Assembly: GCA_003433295.1 (NCBI GenBank)
Contig: CP016202.1
Coordinates: forward strand, 429,991 to 466,264
Reading direction: 5' to 3'
DNA length: 36,274 nucleotides
From: Eubacterium minutum ATCC 700079
GTDB taxonomy: Bacteria; Bacillota; Clostridia; Peptostreptococcales; Anaerovoracaceae
Shown: one piece after another, positions 10,111 through 35,536 of the stretch
Position numbering within the stretch: the stretch's first letter is position 1
Layout: each line of letters opens with the position of its first letter
Made by a program: the position numbers and the translations under genes
The notes under the pieces: generated by a model
What the model saw: the letters and a program-made list of their open reading frames with translations, nothing else
Told to the model about the DNA's origin: nothing
Databases searched by the model: none

Positions 10111-10123
10111 TACGTCAGTTAAA

Positions 10124-10236
10124 TATCTTCGGGGCAGGGTGCGATTCCCTACCGGCGGTAAAAGCCCGCGAGCCTGCATGGCATGATTCGGTGAAATTCC
10201 GAAGCCGACAGTATAGTCTGGATGAGAGAAGAAATG
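10124..10236 (+). promoter_or_regulatory. FMN riboswitch (RFN element)
   Basis: The conserved blocks are in order: ATCTTCGGGGCAGGGTG, ATTCCCTACCGGCGGTA, AGCCCGCGAGCC, GAAATTCCGAAGCCGACAGT, and AGTCTGGATGAGAGAAG. This RNA binds FMN and shuts off riboflavin synthesis genes. A terminator hairpin follows before ribD, which fits control by transcription attenuation. Confidence 0.97.
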
Positions 10237-10259
10237 AAAAAGATGATGTTTTTGTCTGG

Positions 10260-12289: not shown

Positions 12290-13510
12290 ATGAATACAAA
12301 AGGAAAAGAAAAATTTGAGTTCAGCAGCATCGAGGATGCTCTGAGCGATCTCAAAAAAGGAAAAATAATCATCTGCACAGATGACCCCGACAGGGAAAAT
12401 GAGGGTGACTTTATATGTGCGGGAGAATTTGCGACAACCGAAAACATCAACTTCATGGCAATGCACGGCAGAGGACTGATCTGCATGCCGGTAAATCGCG
12501 AGATATGCAATCAACTTAATCTCACGCAAATGGTATCGGAAAATACCGATAACCACGAAACCGCCTTCACGGTCTCAATAGATCACATAGATACGAGCAC
12601 AGGCATTTCCGCGGAAGAGCGCGGGCTTACCACCCGCATGGTGGCAAACGGGAAGTGCAAGGCCACGGATTTCAGGCGACCGGGTCACAACTTCCCTCTC
12701 CTTGCCAAGGATGGCGGTGTACTTGAGAGAAACGGTCATACGGAGGCTACCGTCGATCTGCTTCTGCTTGCGGGGCTCAAACCCTGTGGCATATGTTGTG
12801 AAGTCATGGACGACGACGGAACCATGATGAGGACGCCTAAATTAAAAAAGCTGGCTCAGAAGCACGATCTTAAGTTCATATCCATAAAAGCCCTTCAGGA
12901 TTACAGAAAAAAACACGACATTCTGGTCAAGAAGGTAGCGGATACCAAGCTTCCGACACGATACGGCGACTTCCGCGCCATCGGTTTTATAAATCGTTTG
13001 AACGGCGAGCACCACGTAGCGCTTGTCAAGGGCGATATAGGAGACGGCAAGGATGTGCTTTGCCGAGTACATTCTGAATGCCTTACGGGAGACGCTTTTG
13101 CTTCATCAAGATGTGACTGCGGTCAGCAGCTCGCCTCGGCTCTTTCCCAGATAGAAAAAGAAGGACGCGGAATTCTCCTGTACATGAGACAGGAGGGACG
13201 CGGCATAGGACTGATCAACAAATTGAAAGCCTATGAACTTCAGGATAAAGGCATGGATACAATGGAAGCAAACATAGCGCTCGGTTTCCCCGCGGATTTA
13301 AGGGAATATTACATAGGCGCCCAGATTCTGAGAGAACTTGGAGTCAAAACCATGCGTCTTCTGACCAACAATCCTGAAAAAGTGTATCAGCTTGAGGCTT
13401 TCGGCATCGAAATTATATCAAGAGTTCCAATTCAGATGGAGGCCACCGCCCACGATCTGTTCTATCTGAAGACCAAGCAGAAAAGAATGGGACACATACT
13501 GGACTATTGA
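12290..13510 (+). CDS. ribBA: RibBA, DHBP synthase / GTP cyclohydrolase II
   Basis: A bifunctional entry enzyme of riboflavin synthesis. The N-terminal half makes 3,4-dihydroxy-2-butanone 4-phosphate from ribulose 5-phosphate; the C-terminal half opens GTP. DHBP synthase motifs are [34 protein letters not shown] and [11 protein letters not shown]. Cyclohydrolase motifs are [19 protein letters not shown] (zinc cysteines) and RQEGRGIGL. 406 residues, full length. The start has GGAAAGGA upstream. The acidic loop reads DDPDRENEG where many homologues have DDEDRENEG, with the metal-binding Glu kept. It lies in the FMN-regulated operon behind a repeat-bearing spacer. Confidence 0.97.
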
Positions 13511-13580
13511 GACATCGGCAATCAATTTCCCTGATTTGCCGAACTCGCATCAATATATTTTAAACACACGGAGGTAGAGA

Positions 13581-14045
13581 ATGAAAATTTATGAAGGTAA
13601 ACTGGTATCCAAAGAGGCGAAGATAGCAATCGTCTGCGGCAGATTCAACGAACTTGTCACATCAAAACTTTTAAGCGGCGCCCTTGACGGACTGAAACGT
13701 CACAACGTGCCCGACACCAATATAGAAATCGCATGGTGCCCGGGAGCTTTTGAGATTCCGCTGATAGCCAAGAAACTCGCGATGAGCGGCAAATACGATG
13801 CGGTGATCTGTCTCGGCGCGGTAATAAGAGGAGCAACGTCTCACTATGACTATGTTTGTTCGGAAGTGTCAAAAGGCATAGCCAATGTGAGCCTTGAGAG
13901 CGGCGTGCCGGTAATGTTCGGGATTCTCACCACCGACAGCATAGAACAGGCCCTTGAAAGAGCGGGAACCAAGGTGGGTAATAAAGGTTTTGACTGTGCG
14001 GAAAACGCCATCGAAATGGTCAATCTGATCAATGAGATAAAATAG
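13581..14045 (+). CDS. ribH: 6,7-dimethyl-8-ribityllumazine synthase
   Basis: It condenses the pyrimidine product with DHBP to form lumazine, the substrate of RibE. 154 residues, normal length. Motifs are [51 protein letters not shown] (catalytic His in TSHYD) and [24 protein letters not shown] (phosphate-binding region). The start has GGAGG upstream. It ends 1 nt before thiN, so the two are translated together. Confidence 0.97.
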
Positions 14046-14896: not shown

Positions 14897-15673
14897 ATGT
14901 ACGAAAACATCAAGTATGAAGTCAAGGGCAATATCGGATACTTGACCATCAACAGACCCAAGGCACTTAATGCACTGAATACAGATGTACTGAGTGAACT
15001 TTCTTCCGTCCTCGGTGAAATCGAATCAAACGACGATGTCAAAGCTGTAATCCTCACCGGTGAGGGCAAAGCGTTCGTTGCGGGCGCGGACATAGCCCAG
15101 ATGAAAGATCTCAATGCGGTCGACGGAAGATCCATGATGCTCGCCGGACATAAGGTGATGAATGCCATCGACAGAATGCCAAAACCGTTTATTGCGGCAG
15201 TCAACGGTTTTGCTCTCGGAGGCGGTTGCGAACTTGCTATGGCGTGCGATATCCGCATCGCTTCTGACAAGGCGAAATTCGGTCAGCCCGAGGTTGGACT
15301 CGGCATAATTCCGGGCTTTGGCGGAACGCAGAGACTTGCCCGCTTAGTCGGCAAAGGACTCGCGAAATATCTCATTTACACTGCGGAACTTATAGATGCC
15401 GATGAAGCCATGCGCATTGGACTCGTTGAAAAGGTTGTACCTGCGGAGGAACTCATGGCCGCAAGTGAAAAGGTGGCTTCCGCAATCGTTTCCAAAGCTC
15501 CTGTCGCCGTGGCTCAGGCGAAGGTTGCCATAAACGAAGGAATGGATATGAATCTGCATTCAGGCTGCCATCTCGAAGTTGAAGCCTCAACGGTCTGCTT
15601 CGGTTCTGAAGATAAATTTGAGGGAATGTCGGCATTCCTTGAAAAGCGTAAAGCCGAATGGAAAAATAAATAG
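14897..15673 (+). CDS. crt: Enoyl-CoA hydratase / crotonase
   Basis: A 258-residue crotonase-fold enzyme hydrating short-chain enoyl-CoA, most likely crotonyl-CoA/3-hydroxybutyryl-CoA in the butyrate pathway. The CoA-binding and oxyanion region is AFVAGADIAQM and GFALGGGCELAMACDIRIAS (catalytic Glu in CELA). The second Glu is in FGQPEVGLGIIPGFGGTQRL. Length and motifs match clostridial Crt closely. The start has AAAGGAG 7 nt upstream. It stands alone with its own promoter and terminator; the thiolase, hydroxybutyryl-CoA dehydrogenase and butyryl-CoA dehydrogenase that usually accompany crt are not in the window, so the precise substrate is inferred. Confidence 0.92.
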   Translation: MYENIKYEVKGNIGYLTINRPKALNALNTDVLSELSSVLGEIESNDDVKAVILTGEGKAFVAGADIAQMKDLNAVDGRSMMLAGHKVMNAIDRMPKPFIAAVNGFALGGGCELAMACDIRIASDKAKFGQPEVGLGIIPGFGGTQRLARLVGKGLAKYLIYTAELIDADEAMRIGLVEKVVPAEELMAASEKVASAIVSKAPVAVAQAKVAINEGMDMNLHSGCHLEVEASTVCFGSEDKFEGMSAFLEKRKAEWKNK

Positions 15674-15777
15674 CGGCTGCCCGATAAGTCCTCGCCGGAC
15701 TTATCGGGGTCGGGAGCAGCATATGTTCCCGACCCCGCAGGTTCATCACCGAATACAAATGAACCTGCGGCAGCCGC
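15673..15777. other. Four-helix cloverleaf-like palindromic element
   Basis: Four perfect helices fit end to end in 105 nt: a closing stem of 7 bp (15673-15679 with 15771-15777), arm 1 of 12 bp (15680-15691 with 15697-15708, loop 5), arm 2 of 7 bp (15709-15715 with 15727-15733, loop 11) and arm 3 of 12 bp (15735-15746 with 15759-15770, loop 12). Only one base of the junction is unpaired. It starts at the last base of the crt stop codon. It is not a tRNA: there is no T-loop and no 5-bp anticodon stem. Function unknown. Confidence 0.8.
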
Positions 15778-15785
15778 CTGAGCGG

Positions 15786-15827
15786 TGCCGGCACCCGTAA
15801 CCGATCAGGTGCCGGCATTTTATTTTG
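15786..15827 (+). terminator. Rho-independent terminator downstream of crt
   Basis: TGCCGGCACC (15786-15795) pairs with GGTGCCGGCA (15808-15817) around a 12-nt loop, followed by TTTTATTTTG. It lies just after the cloverleaf-like element and ends the crt transcript. Confidence 0.85.
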
Positions 15828-15901
15828 TCATCTTTACTTTACGCCGTTACTTCCGTTTCGTGATATGCAGCACCACTTCCGCTTCCGGGTGTCGGCGCTC
15901 G

Positions 15902-16351
15902 CTACATGTTTATCACTCCTATGGTCAGCATCATTACCAAGGCTCCCGCCGCGCAGACTCCCAAAAGGATCATGGGAACCGCATCTTTCAACCTCATCTC
16001 GAGCATTGCGGCGACCAGCGCCCCCGTCCATGCTCCTGTCCCCGGCAGCGGAACGGCTACCAGTATGAACAATCCCAGCTTTTCATACTTTCTCACCGTA
16101 TCGGCTTTACTGTCAGCTCTTTTTTCTATTTTCCTTATGAAGTCATCTATCTTATGATGTTTTTCCCTTAAAAACTTAAAGATCTCTCTTATAAAGACGA
16201 TGATAAACGGTACAGGTATCATGTTTCCGATCACAACCAGAACATATATGAGCCATGGATTGAGGTCGTGAGTAACGGCAAAGGGTATCGCAGCTCTCAG
16301 TTCAGCCACAGGAGCCATAGAAATCAGTACGGTCATCAGAATTTTATCCAT
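15902..16351 (-). CDS. Small multidrug-export-family membrane protein (COG2426-like)
   Basis: About 149 residues. N-terminal MAPVAELRAAIPFAV is the hallmark of the COG2426 / small multidrug export family. It is followed by a helix (WLIYVLVVIGNMIPVPFIIVF), a basic loop, a conserved LFILVAVPLPGTGAWTGALVAAM and a C-terminal helix. It resembles part of the DedA superfamily. The export function in the family name has little direct support. ATG 16351 is preferred (AGGAAG 7 nt upstream); ATG 16357 has too little spacing. It overlaps the upstream membrane gene by 8 nt, so both are co-translated. Confidence 0.8.
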   Translation of the reverse strand: MDKILMTVLISMAPVAELRAAIPFAVTHDLNPWLIYVLVVIGNMIPVPFIIVFIREIFKFLREKHHKIDDFIRKIEKRADSKADTVRKYEKLGLFILVAVPLPGTGAWTGALVAAMLEMRLKDAVPMILLGVCAAGALVMMLTIGVINM

Positions 16352-16967
16352 ATACATGCTTCCTGTTCGTTTTAATCTGAACCACCACTCCTACAATCAT
16401 CAGCACGAGGATCACACATGTGACAAGCATCGGTTCCTCTTTTGCAAAATCGACAAATATCTTGCGGTTTAAATGCTTTACCGTCGTCTGCGGCGAAGAT
16501 CCGATATTATTGCTCAACGTCCTGTAATTGAGAATCATATACATACACGGCAACGAAAACAGCGACGCGCCGTTTGCGGCGGTGGAAACCGTAATCATTA
16601 TATCCACCGATTTGAGAAACAGAATCACCATAGCAACTATTATCAGCGCAAAAACCGCATACTTATATTTTTCGATTTCCTCAGGCAAAAAAGGACTTAC
16701 CAGCCTCGCCGCTACGACGCCTGCTATAACTCCGAAAATGACAATGCCCGCCTTGATTATGAATCCCGTTATCAGCGCAACCACTGCCCCGCAAAGAGCC
16801 GCTATTATCAACTCCGAATTTTTCGTTCCGAGTTTTCCTATCACCATATTGAACGTAAACAGAAAGCAGCTCAGGGTCACCATGGGTTTAAACAGATCCC
16901 GCCCTTTAAAAAGCAGCAGTCCTCCAATTACGGTCAGTACCGCCGTATACAAAAATAATTCCAGCAT
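16344..16967 (-). CDS. Polytopic membrane protein, TM7S3/TM198-like
   Basis: A 207-residue protein with about six hydrophobic segments, for example LFLYTAVLTVIGGLLLF, LIIAALCGAVVALITGFII, IVIFGVIAGVVAARL, YAVFALIIVAMVILFL and LVTCVILVLMIVGVVV. Repeated small residues in the helices (Gly/Ala) and the overall layout recall the TM7S3/TM198-like (DUF4203) domain, but the match is weak. No catalytic motif is visible. It forms a two-gene unit with the downstream export-family protein. Function unknown. Confidence 0.6.
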   Translation of the reverse strand: MLELFLYTAVLTVIGGLLLFKGRDLFKPMVTLSCFLFTFNMVIGKLGTKNSELIIAALCGAVVALITGFIIKAGIVIFGVIAGVVAARLVSPFLPEEIEKYKYAVFALIIVAMVILFLKSVDIMITVSTAANGASLFSLPCMYMILNYRTLSNNIGSSPQTTVKHLNRKIFVDFAKEEPMLVTCVILVLMIVGVVVQIKTNRKHVYG

Positions 16968-26547: not shown

Positions 26548-26623
26548 TGGTGCTCAGTCTCGGAATCGAACCAAGGACACAGGGATTTTCAGTCCCTTGC
26601 TCTACCAACTGAGCTAACTGAGC
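26548..26623 (-). tRNA. tRNA-Phe (GAA)
   Basis: 76 nt with encoded CCA. The anticodon loop CTGAAAA gives GAA. The 7-bp acceptor GCTCAGT/ACTGAGC and the T-arm GGTTCGATTCC are intact. Last gene of the cluster. Confidence 0.97.
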
Positions 26624-26649
26624 ACAACAATAGCGTAAATATTAAACTT

Positions 26650-26726
26650 TGGTGGGCCACCAGGGACTTGAACCCGGGACCTGCCGGTTATGAGCCGGAT
26701 GCTCTGACCAACTGAGCTAGTGGCCC
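26650..26726 (-). tRNA. tRNA with CAT anticodon (Met or lysidine-modified Ile)
   Basis: 77 nt with encoded CCA. Acceptor GGGCCAC/GTGGCCC; loop CTCATAA gives anticodon CAT. The arm GGCTCATAACC resembles Ile2 tRNAs of Bacillus (modified by TilS) but also occurs in some clostridial elongator Met tRNAs, so identity is left open. It lacks initiator features such as the GGG/CCC pairs in the anticodon stem. Confidence 0.9.
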
Positions 26727-26737
26727 ACGTCATTTAA

Positions 26738-26814
26738 TGGTCGGGGTGGCAGGATTTGAACCCGCGGCCCACTGGTCCCAAACCAGTTGCGCTACCAAGC
26801 TGCGCTACACCCCG
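26738..26814 (-). tRNA. tRNA-Pro (TGG)
   Basis: 77 nt with encoded CCA. Acceptor CGGGGTG/CACCCCG; anticodon loop TTTGGGA gives TGG; T-arm GGTTCAAATCC. A 94-nt spacer separates it from tRNA-Trp and shows no recognisable feature. Confidence 0.97.
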
Positions 26815-26908
26815 AAAAATAATCGGTCAAGATCATCAAATACTCTTTACATATTGTTTTGTTATCGCTGATAGATTTACTTTGTGCAATTATGCTGTTT
26901 TAATCAAA

Positions 26909-26984
26909 TGGCAGGGGCAGAAGGATTTGAACCCTCGACACGTGGTTTTGGAGACCACTGCTCTACCAACTGAGCTATACCCCT
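26909..26984 (-). tRNA. tRNA-Trp (CCA)
   Basis: 76 nt with encoded CCA. Acceptor AGGGGTA/TGCCCCT (one wobble), anticodon loop CTCCAAA gives CCA, discriminator G as in bacterial Trp tRNAs. Confidence 0.97.
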
Positions 26985-26994
26985 ATAATAAATA

Positions 26995-27086
26995 TGGCGG
27001 AGAAGGCGAGATTCGAACTCGCGCGGCCCTAAACGAACCCTAACGGTTTAGCAAACCGTCCTCTTCAGCCACTTGAGTACTTCTCC
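26995..27086 (-). tRNA. tRNA-Ser (GCT)
   Basis: 92 nt with encoded CCA and a long variable arm (type II). Acceptor GGAGAAG/CTTCTCC; anticodon loop TTGCTAA gives GCT; discriminator G. Confidence 0.97.
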
Positions 27087-27121
27087 ACAGCTTATTATCG
27101 GCGCATAAACGACTCCGTTAA

Positions 27122-27207
<86 letters not shown>

Positions 27208-27231
27208 ATACGATCGGCATTCGTAAAATCT

Positions 27232-27307
27232 TGGTGACCCATCGGAGATTCGAACTCCGGACACCTTGATTAAAAGTCAAGTGCTCTGCCACCTGAGCTA
27301 ATGGGTC
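27232..27307 (-). tRNA. tRNA-Lys (TTT)
   Basis: 76 nt with encoded CCA. Acceptor GACCCAT/ATGGGTC; anticodon loop CTTTTAA gives TTT; discriminator A. Confidence 0.97.
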
Positions 27308-27313
27308 ATAAAC

Positions 27314-27388
27314 TGGCTGGGGTAGCGGGGATCGAACCTGCGCATAAGGGAGTCAAAGTCCCTTGCCTTACCACTTGGCTATACCCCA
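27314..27388 (-). tRNA. tRNA-Gln (TTG)
   Basis: 75 nt with encoded CCA. Acceptor TGGGGTA/TACCCCA; anticodon loop CTTTGAC gives TTG. It starts 6 nt before the Lys gene on this strand. Confidence 0.97.
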
Positions 27389-27427
27389 ACGATACCGCGT
27401 TCCAACATTATATTCTTAAGTAAAAAA

Positions 27428-27504
27428 TGGTGAGCCCGCAGAGATTCGAACTCTGGACACACGGCTTAGAAGGCCGATGCTCTATCCAGCTGAGCTACGA
27501 GCCC
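27428..27504 (-). tRNA. tRNA-Arg (TCT)
   Basis: 77 nt with encoded CCA. Anticodon loop CTTCTAA gives TCT. The acceptor GGGCTCG/CGGGCTC holds two G-U wobbles (positions 2-71 and 5-68), slightly unusual but compatible with function. Confidence 0.95.
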
Positions 27505-27516
27505 ACACACTTTTAG

Positions 27517-27590
<74 letters not shown>

Positions 27591-27595
27591 ATGAT

Positions 27596-27670
27596 TGGAG
27601 CGGAAGACGAGATTCGAACTCGCGACCCTCGCCTTGGCAAGGCGATGCTCTACCCCTGAGCCACTTCCGC
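27596..27670 (-). tRNA. tRNA-Gly (GCC)
   Basis: 75 nt with encoded CCA. Acceptor GCGGAAG/CTTCCGC; anticodon loop TTGCCAA gives GCC; discriminator U. It lies 5 nt from the other glycine tRNA. Confidence 0.97.
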
Positions 27671-27674
27671 AGAC

Positions 27675-27759
27675 TGGTCGAGGGAGATGGATTCGAACCA
27701 TCGTAAGCTCAGCTAACGGATTTACAGTCCGCCCCCTTTAGCCACTCGGGCATCCCTCG
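27675..27759 (-). tRNA. tRNA-Tyr (GTA)
   Basis: 85 nt with encoded CCA and a long variable arm. Acceptor CGAGGGA/TCCCTCG; anticodon loop CTGTAAA gives GTA. The 92-nt spacer up to tRNA-Thr contains two small hairpins (CTCCG/CGGAG; AAGTC/GACTT) and no gene. Confidence 0.97.
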
Positions 27760-27851
27760 AAATATTTAATGTATAAATGTATATATAAGAAGTCTTTACG
27801 ACTTTCTTTTGCCCTGTTCGGTCGCGCTCCGATCCGGAGCCGGTACATTTC

Positions 27852-27926
27852 TGGAGCTGGCGGAGGGAATCGAACCCCCAACCTGCTGATTACAAATCAG
27901 CTGCTCTACCGTTGAGCCACGCCAGC
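27852..27926 (-). tRNA. tRNA-Thr (TGT)
   Basis: 75 nt with encoded CCA. Acceptor GCTGGCG/CGCCAGC; anticodon loop TTTGTAA gives TGT. Confidence 0.97.
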
Positions 27927-27957
27927 GTAGTGTTTTTTTAAACTTATTTAAAAAAAT

Positions 27958-28034
27958 TGGCGACCAAGACGGGGCTCGAACCCGTGACCTCCAGCGTGAC
28001 AGGCTGGCATTCTAACCAACTGAACTACTTGGCC
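27958..28034 (-). tRNA. tRNA-Asp (GTC)
   Basis: 77 nt with encoded CCA. Acceptor GGCCAAG/CTTGGTC (one wobble); anticodon loop CTGTCAC gives GTC; discriminator G as expected for Asp. Confidence 0.97.
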
Positions 28035-28065
28035 ACATCCCGCACCGACGTGCTTTTAAAAAACC

Positions 28066-28141
28066 TGGTGGGCGCTATAGGGCTCGAACCTATGACCCTC
28101 TGCTTGTAAGGCAGATGCTCTCCCAGCTGAGCTAAGCGCCC
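28066..28141 (-). tRNA. tRNA-Val (TAC)
   Basis: 76 nt with encoded CCA. Acceptor GGGCGCT/AGCGCCC; anticodon loop CTTACAA gives TAC. First gene of the cluster, about 46 nt from the promoter -10. Confidence 0.97.
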
Positions 28142-35442: not shown

Positions 35443-35536
35443 GTAAAATGCGGACATGGGTATCCGGCAAGTCCTCATCGCAGGCGATCGCACTCCTCAC
35501 CTGCTAAAAAACCTAATCCCCATGTCCGCATTTTAC
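35443..35536. repeat. 18-bp perfect inverted repeat enclosing 58 bp
   Basis: GTAAAATGCGGACATGGG (35443-35460) is the exact reverse complement of 35519-35536. The 58-bp centre contains GCGATCGC and a GCAGG/CCTGC pairing. No clear target duplication flanks it. It could be a small palindromic or MITE-like element, or a hairpin at the 3' end of the downstream minus-strand surface gene. The remaining spacer between 35292 and 35608 shows no convincing gene. Confidence 0.75.

Follow-up and report, generated by a model that had tools for sequence, protein, structure and literature searches.

Bacterial MITEs are short, non-coding and often intergenic elements that duplicate their target and whose transcripts would fold; one of them, QMITE2, has terminal inverted repeats of 23–29 bp (excerpts of PMC10969869). 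The bcr1–bcr3 sequences of the Bacillus cereus group are intergenic MITE-like repeats that often lie in UTRs (excerpts of PMC3446304), and Bcr1 is of a stem-loop type (excerpts of PMC2267715). REP/BIME–RAYT systems comprise extragenic palindromes at high copy number in the excerpts that describe them, and target recognition by IS608, of the IS200/IS605 type, proceeds by base pairing (excerpts of PMC5934647). The repeat analysed here resembles the bacterial MITEs in being short, non-coding, often intergenic, target-duplicating and foldable when transcribed. It differs in that the place of the QMITE2 terminal repeats is taken by two multi-hairpin leaves, whose closing helices measure ~7–10 bp, and in that no parent IS was found among the transposases and ORFs compared. 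It shares with bcr1–bcr3 an intergenic, MITE-like character but occurs in another host group, a comparison made by description only. Unlike REP/BIME–RAYT systems, it is accompanied by target duplication, and its main carriers have no Y1_Tnp. Such a repeat was not found described in the open-licence papers that we searched. The family is probably a structurally elaborate MITE-like element, and its carriers are Hornefia and some other members of the same bacterial family.

The window, by which we mean the whole stretch of 36,274 nucleotides analysed, contains a cloverleaf whose first base is also the third base of the TAA-type end of a crt-like reading frame, its stop codon (Table 1). The four helices and the single unpaired junction base that an earlier note had read from the letters were reproduced by DNA folding, in which 15734 is the sole unpaired junction base and arm 2 lengthens to 10 pairs around a loop of 5 nt; in the RNA minimum-free-energy (MFE) structure arm 2 has 13 pairs, and the junction is slightly moved. 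The RNA MFE is −74.4 kcal/mol, compared with −33.1 ± 3.6 in 200 shuffles (z −11.6), and the DNA MFE is −42.4 (z −10.4). In neither case was any of the 200 shuffles as low, which places the fold well outside chance. The note had recognised no known RNA family, and likewise Rfam yielded nothing above the gathering threshold at the element in the window or at the six loci scanned.

Table 1. Coordinates of the cloverleaf repeat, its helices and the adjoining features in the window
Feature	Position	Strand	Size	Evidence or remark
crt-like enoyl-CoA hydratase gene	14897..15673	+	258 aa	PRK05809.1, 367.9 bits (below the curated cut-off of 394); PF00378
Left flank TAAATA (fits TAANNA)	15667..15672	+		no matching right duplication
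Cloverleaf repeat, single leaf	15673..15777	+		RNA/DNA fold; covariance-model match
Closing helix	15673-15679 / 15771-15777		7 bp	fold
Arm 1	15680-15691 / 15697-15708	+	12 bp, 5-nt loop	GATAAGTCC..GGACTTATC
Arm 2	15709-15715 / 15727-15733	+	7 bp, 11-nt loop	
Arm 3	15735-15746 / 15759-15770	+	12 bp, 12-nt loop	AGGTTCAT..ATGAACCT
Terminator-like hairpin, T-rich tail	~15784-15826	+	12-nt loop	fold, -23.1 kcal/mol
Putative small multi-drug export protein gene, convergent to crt	15902..16357	-		PF06695, 144 bits

The covariance-model search for other copies proposed in the earlier note was run, and copies occur both in the same genome and in relatives, so the element is not unique. A DNA search of the 1.91-Mb genome that contains the window (G000) recovered another whole copy, 69% identical, with arms of different sequence that nevertheless pair, together with further short matches to arm 1. 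A cobalamin riboswitch lies near this second copy (L016 445–637, minus strand). A covariance model built from five copies (R1) gives the window copy 94.3 bits, this copy itself being among the five seeds. At E ≤ 0.01, R1 found 7 matches in G000 itself, no fewer than 54 in Hornefia butyriciproducens (G002), no fewer than 57 in its congener G008 and 2 in the congener G006; the counts for G002 and G008 are lower bounds, as 150 of 424 and 150 of 499 candidates, respectively, were scored. At the same threshold, the 13 others of the 17 genomes of the genus gave no match. Under stricter filters and E ≤ 1e-4, 6 of 296 genomes were positive in a family-level sample and 5 of 393 in an order-level sample, congeners being included in both; the carriers also comprise an uncultured Clostridia MAG (G186) and a Bacillota MAG (G226). 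Arm 1 still matches at the DNA level in relatives (TTAAGTCC..GGACTTAA), and GGTTC/GAACC of arm 3 is common to all seven own-genome copies. The members of this family are short, lack coding capacity, are present in multiple copies and are dispersed on both strands. Carriage by phage or plasmid was considered and rejected: the exact left end is absent from the viral contigs searched, the crt protein has no relative in them, and the plasmid search gave one match, which covers 14% of the query and lies inside a gene.

In its complete form, seen in the high-copy genomes, the element reads D–leaf 1–D′–leaf 2–D, where D′ is the 5-mer between the leaves, followed by GATGC. D is the duplicated target, of 5 bp (6 bp in two copies), and often lies within TAANNA. 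Leaf 1 is the cloverleaf, of ~103 nt (GTGTCTGC...GCAGACAC), and leaf 2 is a second multi-hairpin unit of ~150 nt (GATGCTTGTGCTCAG...CTGAGCACGCATT). They follow each other in this order in G002, G008, G006 and G186 and together measure ~254 bp in G002 and G008. A single leaf is closed by a helix of 7–9 bp. The full element has the outer ends GTGTCTGCTCATTAAG / GAGCACGCATT and carries TGCTCA near both of them in inverted order, with GTGTC before TGCTCA at the left and AATGCG at the right. Allowing at most one mismatch, the right-end 14-mer occurs 35 times in G002, 32 in G008, 23 in G186, 2 in G006, 2 in G000 and once in G226, whereas the control, the reversed 14-mer, gives 0 or 1 matches. The left-end 16-mer, at up to two mismatches, occurs 47 times in G002, 49 in G008, 25 in G186, 3 in G006, 2 in G226 and 0 times in G000, against 0–3 matches for its controls. 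Directly 3′ of the window cloverleaf, CTGAGC (15778–15783) looks like the beginning of CTGAGCACGCATT, the right-end motif of the full element; it may be the trace of a lost leaf 2, or it may be there by chance.

Identical 5-mers flank 25 of 59 left/right end pairs, compared with a mean of 4.0 and a maximum of 10 in 1000 shuffles of the right flanks, in a set that includes orthologous and tandem copies, which are not independent, and a few short pairs that may be chance. The remaining 34 pairs have no exact 5-mer match, and among the 59 two copies with 6-bp duplications were scored as mismatches. The duplicated 5-mers include AATTA, AATAA, AAATA, AATTC, AAAAA, AAGCA and AAACA, and because these letters vary they represent a duplicated target rather than a constant end. 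The left flank has the form TAANNA in 34 of the 59 end pairs of relatives. The window copy is flanked by AAATA on the left and CTGAG on the right and thus has no target duplication, and by eye none of the seven own-genome copies shows one, so the case for mobility rests on the relatives. With one leaf and no visible duplication, the window copy likewise owes its place in the family to its relatives.

Comparison of orthologous copies between G002 and G008 reveals how the elements decay. Their flanks can be aligned, but the copies are set apart by lost arms, a lost leaf or the loss of nearly everything (pairs L184/L102, L057/L063 and L053/L190). Remnants go down to 26 bp in L102 and 43 bp in L119 and still have both ends. 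The comparison of flanks between these two genomes yielded no clean empty site; the sites are shared, decayed or ambiguous. Tandem copies have one D in common, and a tandem array of the full element with a period of ~263 bp occupies L052 2639–3241 (G002:C26 from 118138). We consider it very probable that the window cloverleaf is one copy of a small, gene-less, structured, non-autonomous, MITE-like family of mobile DNA. Among the options raised in the earlier note was palindromic DNA that moves or is cut by a transposase, and dispersed copies, duplications, patchy distribution and tandem and deleted forms make it the best supported of them.

We examined pairing in an alignment of 100 matches (99 distinct) from 86 loci chosen against duplicates. 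Changes on both sides occur in 31 of 34 pairs, whereas the shuffled mean is 17.3 and none of 500 shuffles reaches 31, in an alignment that was fitted to R1 and is therefore biased towards the structure; slid controls are 28–37% paired. Pairing holds in 94.6% of cells in helix 2 (arm 1) and in 91.6% in helix 3 (arm 2), and in the latter all seven pairs show changes on both sides. Among the seven own-genome copies, mean arm identity and its shuffled counterpart are 0.61 and 0.50 for arm 1, 0.59 and 0.52 for arm 2 and 0.67 and 0.53 for arm 3, and the helices of these copies are for the most part intact although arm 2 is barely above its shuffled identity. Compensatory changes, by which the earlier note would have tested for a functional RNA, are abundant. 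Selection on one RNA strand would give more G-T than A-C mispairs. The counts are 254 G-T and 118 A-C over all columns, but 125 and 117 (p 0.65) once three columns are left out, two with G-T as the commonest state (59 and 65 G-T cells), which hold most of the excess, and a third with 49 non-pairs. As no strand asymmetry is seen with these columns left out, the covariation does not point to an RNA in particular. Selection on hairpin DNA during transposition would keep the fold, as would correction by template switching in replication, which has been put forward for RNA genes (excerpts of PMC8794818); both fit. Compensatory changes are often taken as proof of a functional RNA, and here they occur in what appears to be a mobile DNA repeat, in which selection for one strand as RNA is not evident. 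The family thus offers a natural test between hairpins kept by selection and hairpins kept by template-switch correction.

These observations bear on another reading, in which the element is a structured cis RNA at mRNA 3′ ends that keeps exonucleases off and makes the crt transcript and others more stable, its copies being kept for that purpose. The very stable fold, the pairs maintained by compensatory change and the raw G-T excess all favour it, as does the sense strand, which folds slightly better (mean 0.97 kcal/mol, p 0.013). Gene context adds to this: with ORFs called crudely, 85 of the 100 copies have an ORF on either side (8 overlap an ORF and 7 have no flanking ORF), and a same-sense ORF precedes 54 of these 85. 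Six of the seven own-genome copies are 3′ of a same-sense ORF, four of them at −1, 10, 13 and −15 nt from it. On the other side, the G-T excess vanishes once the three columns are left out, an antisense ORF precedes 31 of the 85 copies, target duplications and remnants point to mobility, and R1 detects no leaf at any of the remaining 16 crt loci in the genus. We therefore regard a family kept for its RNA as improbable, although an additional role at mRNA 3′ ends also fits the 54 of 85 and 6 of 7 copies after same-sense ORFs. That the structure is a chance fold or an assembly artefact without relatives has almost no probability, with no shuffle as stable, 100 covarying matches and an occurrence in several species and assemblies.

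The hairpin-rich ends also recall single-strand elements of the IS200/IS605 type, in which a Y1 (HUH) transposase would read the hairpins and D′ would serve as an internal guide that pairs with the target. Over 45 rows, the complement of D′ matches the left target in 186 of 225 letters, whereas shuffles have a mean of 163 and a maximum of 177 (0 of 2000 as high), statistics that, like those that follow, ignore the kinship of copies. Exact complementarity is found in 19 of 41 rows against 10.1 when shuffled (0 of 20000); the 41 rows omit both L031 rows, the L087 row and the second L039 row, with 6-letter flanks trimmed to their last five letters and an L111 flank of four letters. Rows with a D′ other than TAATT are exact in 6 of 19 cases against 2.1 (p 0.003), or in 4 of 16 against 1.8 (p 0.04) when G186 is also left out. 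Yet D is equal on both sides even where D′ mismatches, as in L025, L030 and L112, so D′ is not a strict dictator of D. No Y1 transposase was found in G000, G002, G008 or G186, and the target is duplicated here; the IS200/IS605 family is not known to duplicate its target. Movement as an IS200/IS605-type element is thus a doubtful explanation, somewhat less credible even than the cis RNA. The association of D′ with the target is itself unexplained: tolerant target guidance and later correction of D′ towards D both fit. It is a tentative and rather unlikely suggestion that D′ is an inverted copy of the element's own target placed between the leaves and able to pair with the left or right D. We would give no greater weight to the related suggestion that D′ pairing guides target choice or post-insertion fold repair even though the target is duplicated as by a DDE-type transposon. 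If true, this would be a new combination of target pairing with target duplication.

For a mobile, gene-less family, we searched the carriers for a mobilising enzyme. Y1_Tnp has 0 matches in G000, G002, G008 and G186, where the absence is weak evidence for G186 because that genome is 70% complete, and it has 2 matches in G006 and 1 in G226; a Y1/RAYT mobiliser was accordingly rejected for the main carriers. Transposases of the rve type occur in 5 of 6 carriers. DDE_Tnp_1 (PF01609) is present in 2 of 6 carriers and absent from 4. Three DDE_Tnp_1 groups of G008 match the IS1634 model, two of them above the cut-off. These IS1634-like elements (L194–L207) have copies that are 99.6–100% identical within each group, and, like the repeat, some copies of two groups show short duplications, here AT-rich and 6 bp long (by eye). 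They were rejected as the parent IS in view of their ends, CACTGAAAC, CCCGACTTTG and TAATAC, which are unlike those of the element. The search for an autonomous copy covered 40 of 42 listed regions around ends, with at most ~360 bases read per end. The sequences around unpaired ends hold 109 ORFs of 150 aa or longer, and the 20 that were scanned include no transposase; 14 belong to ordinary families and 6 are unmatched. Hence a parent IS with the element's ends was found neither among Y1 transposases nor among the compared DDE_Tnp_1 groups or the 20 scanned ORFs. The mechanism would involve a transposase supplied in trans and acting at GTGTC... and ...GCACGCATT, with the fold kept through recognition of hairpin DNA, template-switch correction in replication, or both.

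Comparison of crt loci places the window copy in this history. Orthologues of crt occur in 16 of 17 congeners, the own genome included, at 17 loci in total. With R1 at E ≤ 0.01, the leaf is absent from all 16 other loci, three of which are truncated at the edge of a contig, ahead of crt in L137 and L147 and ~500 bases past it in L146; the best match among them, in L140, has an E value of 0.12 and lies away from the crt end. The export gene, a marker of conserved gene order, was found by tblastn at 7 of the 16 other loci. It is located no more than ~55–235 bp from the crt stop in G016, where crt is 88% identical, and in G006, G002 and G008, and in these four genomes the gap holds a terminator-like hairpin (by eye). 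As the leaf is present only at the own locus and gene order is conserved, the leaf after crt is most easily explained by insertion in the lineage that carries it, more so than by loss elsewhere. The spacing after crt in G008 equals the filled length with no leaf detected by R1, so spacing alone is no evidence.

The separate terminator that the earlier note had placed after the cloverleaf was recovered by folding as a distinct hairpin with a T-rich tail. A terminator scan of 15600–15900 listed none under a rule that admits loops of 3–8 nt, which the larger loop of this hairpin exceeds. The hairpin is probably the original crt terminator. The window copy would then be an old single-leaf form, situated between the crt stop codon and the terminator and carried along as part of the crt mRNA, where it may have a secondary role as a stabiliser of the crt 3′ end.

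The window contains further structured or repeated sequences. At 2274–2312 lies an inverted repeat of 18 bp without mismatch, its arms 3 nt apart, to which the cloverleaf model gives no more than 11.1 bits (E 1.2), and a 21-nt inverted repeat, 95% complementary and with 52 nt between its arms, spans 35443–35536. A cluster of tRNAs (15 matches, minus strand) occupies 26551–28141. An FMN riboswitch (118.9 bits) is located at 10121–10237 on the plus strand, upstream of ORFs at 12290–14045, which are riboflavin-type genes.
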